Below are positions 6,059 through 53,675 of a stretch of DNA of 64,000 nucleotides, piece by piece. Numbering within the stretch: position 1 is the first letter of the stretch; every line of letters begins with the position of its first letter. A model generated the notes under the pieces. The model had not been told where the DNA came from and did not search any database. It saw only the letters and a program-made list of their open reading frames with translations. The position numbers were made by a program, and so were the translations under genes. Origin of the DNA: Closterium sp. NIES-65 (Eukaryota > Streptophyta > Zygnematophyceae > Desmidiales > Closteriaceae); contig CANXME010000532.1 in assembly GCA_948144175.1 (NCBI GenBank), forward strand, positions 3,409,001 through 3,473,000, written 5' to 3'.

Positions 6059-6189
6059 TGTTAGAACATATAGCTTACTTGTTTCTGTAGGCTATAGTGG
6101 GGTATTCCATAGGGGGTACAACCCCATAGGGTTTCCTATTTGTACTCACTTCATTTCATAGTCATTCATTCCTGTTCCTTACTTTCACA
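6059..6189 (+). repeat. 3' LTR of E1 (131 bp)
   Basis: Begins TGTTAGAACATATAGC and ends TTTCACA. It shares with every copia LTR in the window a core containing GTAGTGGGGTA or a variant, then ATAGGGGGTACAACCC, then TAGGGTTTC. The second base pair of the usual TGTCAG start is TGTTAG here. Confidence 0.88.
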
Positions 6190-6411
6190 GTCTCGGGTTC
6201 GAATCCCGGTGTATGCACATGTTGGTCGTTGCCACTATGCTCAGTCCTGGGCCTCCCAGTGTGGGGGGGTGTCAGTAGAGCTACACTGTGAGATCCCCGA
6301 TCGATCCTAGGGGGGGTTACAGGCGCGTTTGCTTGGGGGGTTATGGGCGCACTAACCCGCTACTGAAACAAGCCCTTTTATCCCAATGGTCTAGTGGTTG
6401 GGATTCTGACA
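6190..6411 (+). mobile_element. TRIM remnant, right half (interrupted by E1)
   Basis: Internal tail (6190-6269) plus complete 142-bp 3' LTR (6270-6411) of a miniature LTR retrotransposon. The internal part starts with a tRNA-like B box (GGTTCGAATCC) and ends in a seven-G polypurine tract (GTGTGGGGGGG). The LTR begins TGTCAGTAGAGC and ends GGATTCTGACA. It closely matches the LTRs of the minus-strand TRIM at 28987-29363. The left LTR and PBS lie beyond E1, outside the window. It encodes no protein. Confidence 0.82.
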
Positions 6412-7425: not shown

Positions 7426-8561
7426 CTAAAGCAGTACCCCTGAGTAGACCGCTAGGTCTCCACGTCGTCGGCGTACGAAGAGTTGTAGTGACCGGTCAAT
7501 ACAACTGGCGTAGTGACCACTAAACTCAAAGGGCTCGTCGGGAAACGGGCCGGTGAGTCTGTGGTCAACGGCAAGAGGAGTAGGCTGTGTGGTGGAGTGC
7601 TGAAGCCCGAACCGCAAAAGGACCTGCTGCACCATGTGTGCCTGTGAGAGTGTAATGGTGTGAGCGGTTCTGTCCCTGGTGATCTGCAAGCCAAGGTAGC
7701 GGCGCAGCTCACCAAGGTCAGTGCACGTGTGCCTCTTCTACAGTTCGGACTTCACCTCAGCCAAAGCAACCCTGTCTACTGTAGCGAAAACCAACTCATC
7801 AACGTAGACAAGAACAAAGAAGGGAGTGGAGCCCCTGCGAAAAAATAGCGACGGGTCGGCTGACAAAGGATGGAAACCAAAGTCAGCAAGAGTGCTGCAT
7901 AACGTGTCGTGCCACTCACGGGGCGCCTGGCGGAGACCATAGACTGGTCGTCTCAGGCTCCACTGGGTCCTAGGCGGGAAAGTGCCAGTGAAGCCAAGAG
8001 GACGACGCAACCAGATCTCCTCGTGCAGGCTGCCCTGGAGAAAAGCAGTGGAGAAGTCGAGGGAGTGCAGCTCGTAGTCACGCTGTGCTGCAACGTAAAG
8101 TAACACCCGAAGAGTCGTCATCTTCGGGGTCGGGCGAAGGTCTGGAAGAAGTCAACTCCCTCACGCTGACTGAAGCCTCTAGCCACGTAGGGTGCCCTGA
8201 AGACGGGCGGCGATCCAGGCGGCCGCTTCACCTTGAAGATCCACATGCCATCGACTACGTTCGCATTGGGAGGGGGAACTGCATCAACGTAGGTGCCTGT
8301 GGATCTCCAAGACGCCATCTCTGCATCCATAGCCGCTTTCCACTGAGAGGACCACTGCCCTGACACTGCCTCACGGTACCTGCGAGGAGTCGGTGTGTCA
8401 AGGGCGGCGGGGTCTCCCTCAGGGAAAAGAAGCATGGCACAGAGAGAGGGAGAAGCAGCTGCCAAGAACTCCTGCTCAAACTGCCTATCCTCTAGGACAT
8501 CACAACCAAGGGCAATCTCACCCCCGGCGGACAGAGGACGGGCAGGCAGAGCAGCCACCAC
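7426..8561 (-). pseudogene. E2 reverse transcriptase remnant
   Basis: RT split over several frames. 8118-8561 carries the region before the fingers ([18 protein letters not shown], then [16 protein letters not shown]). 7738-8121 carries the palm up to the active site, [20 protein letters not shown] through [15 protein letters not shown]. 7426-7689 carries the thumb/connection (MQITRDRTAHTITLSQAHMV). The active-site box reads YVDE instead of YVDD, so one catalytic aspartate is lost in addition to the frameshifts. Confidence 0.85.
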
Positions 8562-27544: not shown

Positions 27545-28330
27545 AGTGCTCACCAGGCAGGGCAGGTCGTGCAGTCAGCTGCTCGGCTCCCGGGCGGCTC
27601 GGCGGCTGGGCGGCTCGGGCGCAGGGCGGCTCGGCTCCGGGGCGGCTCGGCGGCTGGGCAGCTCGGGTGCAGGGCGGCTCGGCTCCCGGGCGGCTCGGCG
27701 GCTGGGCGGCTCGGGTGCAGGGCGGCTCGGCTCCCGGGCGGCTCGGCGGCAGGGCGGCTCGGGTCCCGGGCGGCTCGGCTGCTGGGGCGGCTCGGCCGGG
27801 AGATGCAGCGTCGGGCCGGCAGGTGCAGCGTCGGGCCGGCAGGTGCAGCGGCGGGCCGGCAGGTGCAAGTGGCGGGCCGTAAGAGGCGGCGGGCCGATGG
27901 GTGCAGCGGCGGGCCGGTAGGTGCAGCGGCGGGCCGGCAGGAGCAGCGGCGGGCCGGCAGGGTGCAGCGGCGGGCCGGCAGGAGCAGCGACGGGCCGGCA
28001 GGGTGCAGCGGCGGGCCGTAGAGGGCAGCGGCGGGGCCGTCGGCAGAGGAGGCGGCGGGGCCGCGTCAGGGGAGGCGGCGGGGCCGCGTCAAGGGAGGCG
28101 GCGGGGCCGCGTCAAGGGAGGCGGCAGGGCCGCGTCAGGGGAGGCGGCGGGGCCGCGTCAGGGGAGGCGGCGAGGCCGCGTCAAGGGAGGCGGCGGGGCC
28201 GCGTCAAGGGAGGCGGCGGGGCCGCGTTAAAAGAGGCGGCGGGGCCGCGTCAAGGGAGGCGGCTGGGCCGCGTCAGGGGAGGCGGCAAAGCCGCGTCAGA
28301 GGAGGCGGCGGGGCCGCGAGTAAAAAGGCG
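27545..28330 (-). repeat. GC-rich leader minisatellites of E3
   Basis: Two tandem arrays in the untranslated leader: GGCTCGGCGGCTGGGCGGCTC-type units (about 27590-27790), then GGGCCGGCAGGTGCAGCGGC units (27800-28020) and GGAGGCGGCGGGGCCGCGTCA units (28040-28330). Open frames on either strand are by-products. Confidence 0.85.
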
Positions 28331-28410
28331 ACACGAGAGGTCGCTAAAAAAAAGGGCGCGCCTCGGGGCGCGCGTCGGTGGGCCCAGAGAACGGTCCTAA
28401 GGTAGGACCC

Positions 28411-28780: not shown

Positions 28781-28893
28781 TGTCAGAGGTCCACTGGTGA
28801 TCCCTGATTGATCCTAGGGAAGGGATACAAACATGTTGGTCTGGGGGGTTATGGGCGCACGGACCCGCTACTTAACAAGCCCTTTTATCCAAA

Positions 28894-28960
28894 TGGTCTA
28901 GTGGTTGGGATTCTGACATGGTATCAGAGCGAAGGTCTCGGGTTCGAATCCCAGTGTGTG
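28894..28960 (+). promoter_or_regulatory. tRNA-like A box/B box across LTR-PBS junction
   Basis: TGGTCTAGTGG (28894-28904) in the LTR end matches the D-arm/A-box region of tRNA-Glu, and GGTTCGAATCC (28941-28951) in the internal part is a B box; spacing is 36 nt. Between them TCTGA and TCAGA form a 5-bp stem with a 7-nt loop, and TCGGG/CCCGG forms a 5-bp stem around the 7-nt loop TTCGAAT. No acceptor stem can be drawn. Pol III activity is inference. Confidence 0.55.
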
Positions 28961-28986
28961 CACTTCGGGCATCCCAGTGCGGGGGG

Positions 28987-29363
28987 TCTCAGAATCCCAA
29001 CCACTAGACCATTGGGATAAAAGGGCTTGTTTCAGTAGCGGGTTAGTGCGCCCATAACCCCCCAGGCAAACGCGCCTGTAACCCCCCCTAGGATCGATCG
29101 GGGATCTCACAGTGTAGCTCTACTGACACCCCCCCACACTGGGAGGCCCAGGGCTGAGCACAGTGGCAACAGCCAACATGTGCATACACCGGGATTCGAA
29201 CGCGAGACCGCTCTGATACCATCTCAGAATCCCAACCACTAGACCATTGGGATACAAGGGCTTGTTTCAGTAGCGGGTCAGTGCGCCCATAACCCCCCAG
29301 GCAAACGCGCCTGTAACCCCCCCTAGGATCGATCGGGGATCTCACAGTGTAGCTGTACTGACA
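28987..29363 (-). mobile_element. TRIM-B nested in the polypurine tract of TRIM-A
   Basis: 377-bp minus-strand miniature LTR element: LTRs 28987-29128 and 29222-29363 (142 bp each), internal region 93 bp with PBS TGGTATCAGAGCGG, a tRNA-like B box (GTTCGAATCCC) and polypurine tract [19 protein letters not shown] (28982-28986, 29364-29368). The LTRs differ at only a few bases. It is the same family as the TRIM at 6190-6411. No coding capacity. Confidence 0.88.
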
Positions 29364-29507
29364 GGGGGGTATCAGAGGTCCACTAGTGATCCCCGATTGA
29401 TCCTAGGGAAGGGATACAAGCATGTTGGCCTGGGGGGTTATGGGCGCACTGACCCGCTACTTAACAAGCCCTTTTATCCCAATGGTCTAGTGGTTGGGAT
29501 TCTGACA

Positions 29508-30170: not shown

Positions 30171-30564
30171 TGTCAAACTTATAAGTTGCTCATTGTGTAG
30201 GCTGTAATGGGGTAGCCCATATGGGGTACAACCCAATTAGGGTTAGCACTTGTACCCATCCTGCTGTTAGTCATTTCATTCCTCGTTCATTCTTCTGACA
30301 TGGTATCAGAGCAGGTCCTAGCATAGGACCTTTTTTTTTTGGGCCCACCATTACTTAGTGACCGACTGCAGTTACCGCATTACCCCACGCCCGCCCTGCG
30401 CTGCGCCGTCAACGCGCGCCCTGCCCTACCCTGCCTTGCTTCACACTGCCCGTGTACGCCCGGCCCTGCGTCGCGCTGCCCCGCGCACGCCCTGCCCTGC
30501 CCCGCGTCGCGCTGTCTCGCGCACGCCCTGCCCTGTAGTGCGTCGCGCTGCCTCGCGCACGCCC
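30171..30564 (+). mobile_element. copia element X, 5' LTR and leader
   Basis: 5' LTR of 130 bp (30171-30300; starts TGTCAAACTTATAAG, ends TTCTTCTGACA), PBS TGGTATCAGAGC (30301-30312), then a leader of roughly 35-bp repeats around GTCGCGCTGCCTCGCGCACG. E4 interrupts the leader at 30564; the same repeat continues at 37994. Bases before the LTR are GTTAA; no matching duplication was found because the 3' end is missing. Confidence 0.85.
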
Positions 30565-30689
30565 TGTCAGATTCATATGATATAGCTGTTGTAGGCTAAA
30601 GTGGGGTAGCACATATGGGGTACGACTTTCTAGGGTTTGTACTTGTACCCAACTTTCCCTTAGTCAATTCATTCTCGTTCGTTTTCTCA
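30565..30689 (+). repeat. 5' LTR of E4 (125 bp)
   Basis: Starts TGTCAGATTCATATGATATAG and ends CGTTTTCTCA. Same LTR family as E5. Confidence 0.93.
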
Positions 30690-30749
30690 TGGTATCGAGC
30701 AGGTTCCCCTGTGGGAACTGTTCCTAGGGCCCACCACCTTTTTTCCTGC

Positions 30750-31730
30750 CCGGAGCGCGCTCTACTCTGCCCGAGTCGCGCTCCCCTCTTTCGACCCTAT
30801 CGCGCCGCCTTAGCGGCCCCGTCGCGTCGAGCTTGCGGCCCCGTCGCGTCGCCCTCGCGGCCCCGTCACGTCGTGCCGCCCTAGCGGCCGCGTCGCGCCG
30901 CCCTCGCGGCCTGCTCGCGCCGCCCTCGCGGCCCTTTCGTGCCGCCCTCGCGGCCTCTTCAAGCCGCCCTCGCGACCCCCCTCCTAGCCGTCCTAGCGGC
31001 CCCGTCGCTTACCCCTGCGGCCCCGGCGCTGCTCTTCCCGGCCCCGGCGCCGCCTCTGCTGGCCCCGTCGCCTACCCAGCTGGCCCCGTCGCCTACCCTG
31101 CGGCCCCGTCGCCTACCCTGCTGGCCCCGGCGCCTACCCTGCGGCCCCGGTGCCTACTCTGCGGCCCCGTCGCCGACAATGCTGGCCCCGACGCCTACCC
31201 TGCAGCCCCGGCGCCTACCCTGCGGCCCCGTCGCCTACCCCTTGCGGCCCCCGGCGCCGCCCTTCCCGGCCCCGGCGCCGCCCTTCCCGGCCCCGGCGCC
31301 GCCTCTGCTGGCCCCGTCGCCTACCCCTGCGGCCCCGGCACCGCCCTTCCCGGCCCCGGCGCCGCCCTTCCCGGCCCCGGCGCCGCCTCTGCTGGCCCCA
31401 TCGCCTACCCTGCGGCCCCGGCGCTACCCTTTCCGGCCCCGGCGCTGCCTCTACGGGCCCCGCCACCGTCCCCACGCGGCCCCGCCGTCACCACCGAGCC
31501 GCCGGCGCCGCCGACCTACTGCCGAGCCGCCCGAGCCACCTGAGCCGCCCGAGCCGCCGCGCCACCTGAGCCGCCCGAGCCGCCGGGTCGCCGAGCTGCC
31601 GAGCCGCCGTACCGCCGAGCCGCCGAGCCGCCACAGCCGCCGAGTCGCCGAGCCGAAGTTGCTGCCGAGCCGCCGAGCCGCCCGAGCCGCCGAGCCGCCG
31701 AACCGCCGAGCCGCCCGAGCCGCCCTGTCC
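30750..31730 (+). repeat. GC-rich leader minisatellites of E4
   Basis: Tandem GCGGCCCCGTCGCCTACCCT and GGCCCCGGCGCCGCCCTTCC units, then GAGCCGCCGAGCCGCC units to about 31730. The matching E5 leader (42360-43230) has the same units in different number. Long Pro/Ala/Arg frames here are repeat artefacts. Confidence 0.85.
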
Positions 31731-53660: not shown

Positions 53661-53675
53661 TCTGCTCTGATACCA

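Follow-up and report, generated by a model that had tools for sequence, protein, structure and literature searches.

In Closterium sp. NIES-65, a very small plant-type retrotransposon (TRIM) is present in thousands of genomic copies, one of which is the outer element in the window, i.e., the whole stretch of 64,000 nucleotides analysed here. Its sequence suggests that it is copied by the machinery that transcribes tRNA genes. We give slightly better than even odds (a probability of about 0.55) to the reading that it is a TRIM mobilised by Copia elements, with a putative type 2 (tRNA-like) Pol III promoter that is split across the boundary between LTR and primer binding site (PBS). The features of the element and of two further copies in the window are listed in Table 1.

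Table 1. Positions of TRIM copies and their sequence features in the window
Feature	Position	Strand	Remark
Outer TRIM	28781-29507	+	138-bp LTRs; inverted TRIM nested inside
5′ LTR of outer TRIM, TG...CA, 138 bp	28781..28918	+	LTR comparison
GGGTTATGGGCGCAC, 14 of 15 nt complementary to the tRNA-iMet anticodon arm	28846..28860	+	Measured on L002 and L026; same letters in the window
CAA triplet, candidate Pol III start	28876..28878	+	First A 17 nt before the A box
TTTT, candidate terminator when in the 3′ LTR	28883..28886	+	Ends 7 nt before the A box
7-bp inverted repeat ATCCCAA/TTGGGAT (ATCCAAA in the window copy), A box as loop	28887..28911	+	70-segment alignment
A box TGGTCTAGTGG (U5 part of the LTR)	28894..28904	+	
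PBS (iMet) TGGTATCAGAGC	28919..28930	+	Directly after the 5′ LTR of the outer TRIM
B box GGTTCGAATCC, in the internal region beyond the PBS	28941..28951	+	
Inverted nested TRIM (TRIM-B), long subfamily	28987..29363	-	LTRs 29222-29363 and 28987-29128
3′ LTR of outer TRIM	29370..29507	+	A box at 29483-29493, no B box after it
Second TRIM copy: B box, internal region, 3′ LTR	6190..6411	+	Left side joined to a Copia-type LTR end

The two LTRs of the outer element differ at 7 of 138 positions, and the 5-mers on either side of it are GTCTA and GTTTA. The nested TRIM was inserted into the polypurine tract (PPT) of the outer one, which is a G-run. Six copies elsewhere in the genome represent two subfamilies, a short one of 345–347 bp with an internal region of about 70 bp and a long one of 375–377 bp with an internal region of about 93 bp, while the LTRs in the family mostly measure 138–142 bp. 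These six copies (345–377 bp, hence below 1 kb in total) have short direct terminal repeats of the form TG...CA and no coding sequence; the internal region is bounded by an iMet PBS and a G-run PPT, and target site duplications (TSDs) are present, all of which is characteristic of a TRIM. In the genome searched (874 Mb in 2400 contigs), junctions of PPT and 3′ LTR with at most three mismatches occur at 1226 + 1271 places for the short and 1213 + 1319 places for the long subfamily, and LTR–PBS junctions of the form CTGACATGGTATCAGAGC at 1621 + 1654 places, not all of which stem from this TRIM family. The tRNA-iMet genes found at six places in the genome are identical over 72–73 nt to plant tRNA-iMet, in keeping with a streptophyte genome.

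Some copies depart from the simple arrangement. Tandem LTR-internal-LTR-internal arrangements, as known for Cassandra, were seen at L013, L017, L076, L097 and L123. At L073, L106 and further loci with the exact pair of boxes, the LTRs end in GA, not CA, and the PBS has one extra C (TGGTATCCAGAGC); the 5-bp TSDs are still there. In the window, GC-rich tandem repeats with periods of about 16, 20–23 and 36 lie beside Copia-type elements (27556–28366 and 30458–30988).

A preliminary description of this DNA had located the A box, the PBS and the B box of the outer element with 36 nt between the boxes, and had stated that both boxes come together only in the joined unit of LTR and internal region; the window sequence agrees on both counts. 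The second copy, at 6190–6411, does keep the B box as described, and also the 3′ LTR with its A box, but where its PBS and 5′ LTR would be expected it has a Copia-type LTR end instead. TRIM-B was likewise said to keep both boxes: its A box is exact, but its B box carries one mismatch, at an invariant G (CGTTCGAATCC).

An exact A box followed after 20–45 nt by an exact B box was found at 1093 + 1150 = 2,243 places in the genome, and the reversed pattern at none (0 + 0). Similarly, the PBS is followed within 3–28 nt by GGTTCGANNCC at 1589 + 1687 = 3,276 places, against 0 for the control, and the two free positions of this B-box pattern are, among the matches listed and by eye, only AT or TT (GAATCC or GATTCC). 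GAATCC and GATTCC are both canonical forms of the B box. A tRNA-Glu-like 20-mer occurs with at most one mismatch at 7,857 places. When we defined a strict pair as TRGYNNARNGG plus GGTTCGANNCC with a start-to-start distance of 38–60 nt, the 64-kb window contained a single one, counting both its strands, namely that of the TRIM at 28894, and none arose in 20,000 dinucleotide shuffles of one 345-bp copy, 31 of which contained a B box. The A and B boxes at a spacing of 30–60 nt, followed by a run of T, reproduce the layout of a type 2 Pol III gene; the start-to-start distance is 43 in an animal tRNA-Glu. A search for other families with a TGGC-type A box before a PBS gave 16 matches, which by eye were 15 members of the same TRIM family with a consensus-compatible change and one apparent coincidence.

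We also sampled copies with a pattern made only of the PPT and the start of the 3′ LTR, so that they were not picked by their boxes. Of 70 loci (L059–L128), 63 yielded 77 distinct junctions and seven merely repeated others. The first 30 listed places are L059–L088; L089–L128 are 40 chosen from further listed places, within which L103–L128 follow the order of the list except for two places in C202. By its anchor the whole sample belongs to the short subfamily, and it leans to young copies since the anchor had to be matched without mismatch. The 14 loci L089–L102 lean against the boxes because listed places with a known exact pair were skipped there, and L087/L088 and L099/L128, which resemble duplicated insertions, were counted separately.

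The B box was exact in 62 of the 77 junctions and had one mismatch in 12, two in one and three in two. Among the 61 junctions with a recognisable 5′ LTR, in all of which an A box could be recognised at up to three mismatches, this box was exact in 46, with one mismatch in 11, two in two and three in two; both boxes were exact together in 35 of 77. Without L089–L102, these figures are 38 of 46 for the exact A box and 49 of 59 for the exact B box. The distance between the starts of the boxes in the 61 junctions is 44 (7 cases), 45 (3), 47 (40), 48 (10) or 54 (1). One of the outcomes that the preliminary description had named as contrary to its proposal was the absence of the A box, or of its spacing, from the majority of genomic copies. 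The sample shows otherwise, as 60 of the 61 junctions have a spacing of 44–48 and 46 an exact A box.

The remaining 16 junctions have no recognisable A box. In 11 of them another sequence stands before the PBS, and in five the A box is shortened (TGGTTAGTGG) or deleted despite an intact B box, with L087 and L088 looking like one insertion that was duplicated. Both LTRs of L120 carry the shortened A box, and therefore this form has been propagated. The sublineage of L087/L088, L120, L098 and L086 has the A box one base shorter and mostly keeps, in a G-C form, the stem of the hairpin that surrounds it.

TSDs and LTR identity were measured for 47 of the 77 junctions, the 16 without an A-like box and 14 with unlocated ends being left out. 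A 5-bp TSD with at most one mismatch flanks 26 of these 47 elements, 18 have flanks of the tandem type and three have neither. Identity between the LTRs of the 26 TSD-flanked elements ranges between 0.914 and 1.0 (median 0.986; five pairs are identical). Judged by these sequences, the family is a recently active one.

The course of transcription that we propose for these TRIMs is the following. TFIIIC would bind both boxes, and Pol III would start near the CAA some 17 nt upstream of the A box, read through the internal region into the 3′ LTR and stop at the TTTT that occupies the equivalent position there. The resulting RNA, about 214–245 nt long and with some 10 nt repeated at its two ends, would take tRNA-iMet as its primer and be copied into DNA by Copia proteins. 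Lying downstream of the start, the promoter would therefore be contained in the RNA and passed on. Because the A box is in U5 and the B box just behind the PBS, a complete promoter would exist only where an LTR precedes an internal region, i.e., at the 5′ end of a full element or in each inner unit of a tandem array, and a 3′ LTR or a solo LTR would hold half of it.

Plant tRNA genes are often preceded by a CAA and followed by a run of four T or more, and CAA triplets are described as their initiation sites in the passages of PMC11700998 that deal with them. The corresponding signals were scored in 56 of the 61 junctions: CAA or AAA is found 13–21 nt upstream of the A box in 53, T4 at the terminator site in the 3′ LTR in 48, and in 50 of the 56 the sequence from the A box to that site is free of T4, although by a rough estimate a T4-free stretch of about 190 nt is not in itself unlikely. 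Two observations are less favourable. The T4 would also fall at about +7 to +10 of the transcript that starts in the 5′ LTR, which counts against transcription by Pol III, and the TATA-like or A/T-rich sequence that commonly lies upstream of plant tRNA genes is, by eye, absent here.

The tRNA-like fold that the preliminary description had envisaged did not hold up. ARAGORN found no tRNA and Rfam no match at gathering scores in the window, and with the Rfam tRNA model neither the window copy nor any of ten further loci gave a match, even when the limit was relaxed to E ≤ 10; a tRNA gene was rejected on the ARAGORN result and the negative results with this model. The window copy has only sub-threshold Rfam matches, among them VA RNA, YrlA and, over the B box, a 13-nt piece of tmRNA. 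As letters, TCTGA (28912–28916) and TCAGA (28924–28928) with their 7-nt loop are present as had been described; this stem is made of the LTR terminus TCTGACA, the inverse of the LTR start TGTCAGA, and of TATCAGA in the iMet PBS. Of three other PBS-like sites compared in the window, one, in a Copia-type element at 30171–30312, has the same TTCTGACATGGTATCAGAGC and no boxes, the strict pair being absent from it, and those at 53664 and 62470 are without TCTGA. Of the T arm proposed for the window copy, TCGGG is there, but its partner reads CCCAG, the CCCGG form occurring in other copies.

In six predicted transcripts, the pair probability of TCTGA/TCAGA is 0.70–0.99 in the three short and 0.08–0.45 in the three long copies, that of the T arm is 0–0.33 in five and 0.79 in one, and the PBS is about half unpaired (mean 0.27–0.56). 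Pairing of the D arm has no covariation support. Since the stem is weak in the long copies, the T-arm pairs are mostly low and the PBS is half unpaired anyway, these models do not support the fold that had been suggested to expose or hide the PBS. Overall, the interpretation given in the preliminary description is partly supported.

The mobilisation of these TRIMs is probably the work of Copia elements, to judge by the surrounding DNA. Three of five neighbouring ORFs scanned encode Ty1/Copia-type domains (gag-pre-integrase, rve, SH3, RVT_2), and one neighbour, a nearby Copia-type element, has the same LTR end TCTGACA and the same PBS. Furthermore, in the 11 of 77 junctions with another sequence before the PBS, that sequence is by eye a Copia-type LTR end in seven (L062, L066, L068, L083, L086, L090 and L104), which here precedes the PBS or internal region of the TRIM; the window has such a junction at 6060–6411. 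Some of these Copia-type chimeric junctions are then followed by another PBS, and a full TSD was found for none of the chimeric junctions. They are probable products of template switching or recombination, and in part the chimeras could be nested insertions or recombinants.

Three other explanations of the boxes have to be weighed against a split promoter. The boxes might resemble A and B boxes by chance and have been multiplied as the element was copied, and the copy number is no independent evidence here because all copies derive from one ancestor; nevertheless, the absence of the pair from all 20,000 shuffles and the extension of the similarity to TGGTCTAGTGGTTRGGATTC on the D-arm-like and TCGGGTTCGAWTCCCGG on the T-arm-like side make this explanation very improbable. 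A relic of a tRNA is a better contender, albeit an unlikely one: a piece derived from a tRNA or SINE could have been captured long ago at the boundary between LTR and internal region and carried along in a core of U5, PBS and packaging sequence, without promoter function and with a Pol II promoter in U3. The boxes fit this in being no better conserved than their surroundings. In an alignment of 66 rows, within the family, mean column divergence is 0.025 for the A box and 0.023 for the B box, compared with 0.027 for the PBS, 0.024–0.027 for the flanking stems, 0.012 for the U3 block and 0.039 for all columns, and 20 of 35 A-box substitutions fit the consensus. The sublineage with a non-canonical A box points the same way, as does the treatment of canonical TRIMs as Pol II elements (TRIMp2) in the part of Kojima 2024 (PMC10886601) devoted to them. 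A mere relic is, however, at odds with exact boxes that are still common at tRNA-like spacing though U3 and the rest of the internal region (about 70 vs. 93 bp) differ between the subfamilies, and by eye the 138-bp LTR has neither a TATA box nor a poly(A) signal.

Less likely again, we consider it improbable that the core serves reverse transcription or packaging instead. On that view, a 7-bp hairpin that lies upstream of the PBS and has the A box in its loop would act in packaging or dimerisation, and PBS-flanking and U3 segments would be extra contacts of tRNA-iMet. The hairpin itself is well formed: in the 70 segments used out of 71 unique ones (L117, with a deleted loop, was left out), 95.1% of its cells are paired as against 93.2% in shuffles, 12 cells have double changes as against 3.1, a number reached by none of 500 shuffles, and in five of six predicted transcripts the pair probability is at least 0.88 for six of the seven pairs, and about 0.5 in the sixth. 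Yet 11 of the 12 double changes replace A-U by G-C in the closing pair of 11 rows, and as the rows are related they represent few independent events; the pairs with double changes are only two, not above shuffles (162 of 500). The LTR segment complementary to the anticodon arm of tRNA-iMet was assessed in one copy of each subfamily (L002 and L026), where its 14 of 15 matches are equalled by 10 and 9 of 2,000 shuffles, and a longer gapped iMet match by 19 and 22 of 5,000 dinucleotide shuffles. In Ty3, as outlined in sections of PMC5371799, a U3 segment contacts the iMet primer, and because of this a bipartite PBS may, by analogy, be possible in the TRIM. Both elements use an iMet primer and share a possible second tRNA contact in U3 near the 3′ end of the RNA, but Ty3 uses the T and D arms, whereas here the anticodon arm is matched, and matched in sequence only. 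A function in reverse transcription or packaging leaves the perfect B box and its spacing from the A box unexplained. To regard the B box simply as an extension of the PBS was rejected, because GGTCTCG, the anti-T-arm match, ends before this box is reached.

The preferred reading of a Pol III promoter split over the LTR/PBS junction can be taken one step further, to a tentative and rather doubtful proposal derived from the layout. The promoter may be a “once-only” one, rebuilt at the 5′ end of every insertion while 3′ and solo LTRs are promoterless; with the boxes so divided, no transcription would then be driven out into the flanking DNA. U5 and PBS may even form a combined module for promotion and priming, in which the A-box hairpin and the anti-iMet segment of U3 bring together the primer tRNA and the ends of the RNA.

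Among described elements, the closest are the Helenus TRIMs, with tRNA-like sequence within their LTRs, which are placed under the group name TRIMp3 in Kojima 2024 (PMC10886601); the only plant family listed in the pages of that paper on Helenus is from Selaginella moellendorffii, with an LTR of 120 bp and an internal region of 85 bp, a size similar to that found here. As Helenus is described on the same pages, it shares with the Closterium TRIM a tRNA-derived sequence with A and B boxes, a PBS and a PPT, the 5-bp TSD of the plant and fungal families, mobilisation by autonomous LTR elements (Copia for the fungal families), which is probable for the Closterium TRIM, and, for the most part, no functional tRNA. 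The definition of Helenus, however, places the tRNA-like sequence inside the LTRs, whereas the LTR of the Closterium TRIM holds only the A box, its B box being internal, and the LTR end and the PBS occupy the place of the anticodon arm; Helenus-1_SMo may have the same arrangement. With its B box outside the LTR, the element therefore lies outside the definition of Helenus as written, though it would work like Helenus. TRIMp3 elements contain the Pol III promoter sequence of some small RNA gene, which the members described in that part of the paper have in the LTR; the Closterium element has promoter-like boxes.

Cassandra, a plant TRIM with a Pol III promoter, has the identical PBS, TGGTATCAGAGC; LTR-internal tandem arrays are also shared, as far as they are treated in PMC7215508. 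Its promoter is of the 5S type (box A/box C) and wholly inside each LTR, whereas here type 2 boxes are split over the boundary. Start and stop of Cassandra are within the LTR, with an 18-bp terminal repeat, in the account given by the corresponding part of Kojima 2024 (PMC10886601). No 5S rRNA sequence was found at Rfam gathering scores in the window, and none was among the matches at E ≤ 10 to the outer TRIM and to ten loci elsewhere. Plant tRNA-derived SINEs, described in part in PMC10886601, resemble the TRIM in RNA length and in having A and B boxes at tRNA spacing within the transcribed RNA, but here there are LTRs, a PBS, a PPT and 5-bp TSDs, and copying would be primed by a tRNA and not at the target. 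TRIMs have been found in a lycophyte and some algae (Gao 2016, PMC4717578), and the words tRNA and polymerase III are absent from the main text of that paper. Searches of the open-licence literature in PubMed Central turned up no published description of boxes divided in this way between LTR and internal region.

If the split promoter is real, it would be a third promoter layout for Pol III TRIMs beside those of Cassandra and Helenus, and these elements would be LTR elements with a SINE-like promoter that does not fire from the 3′ LTR. The tandem arrays would then be rows of Pol III units, as has been proposed for Cassandra. With thousands of copies, some of them with identical LTRs, the family would offer a convenient natural system in which to ask whether RNAs made by Pol III can be used as templates in Copia reverse transcription.
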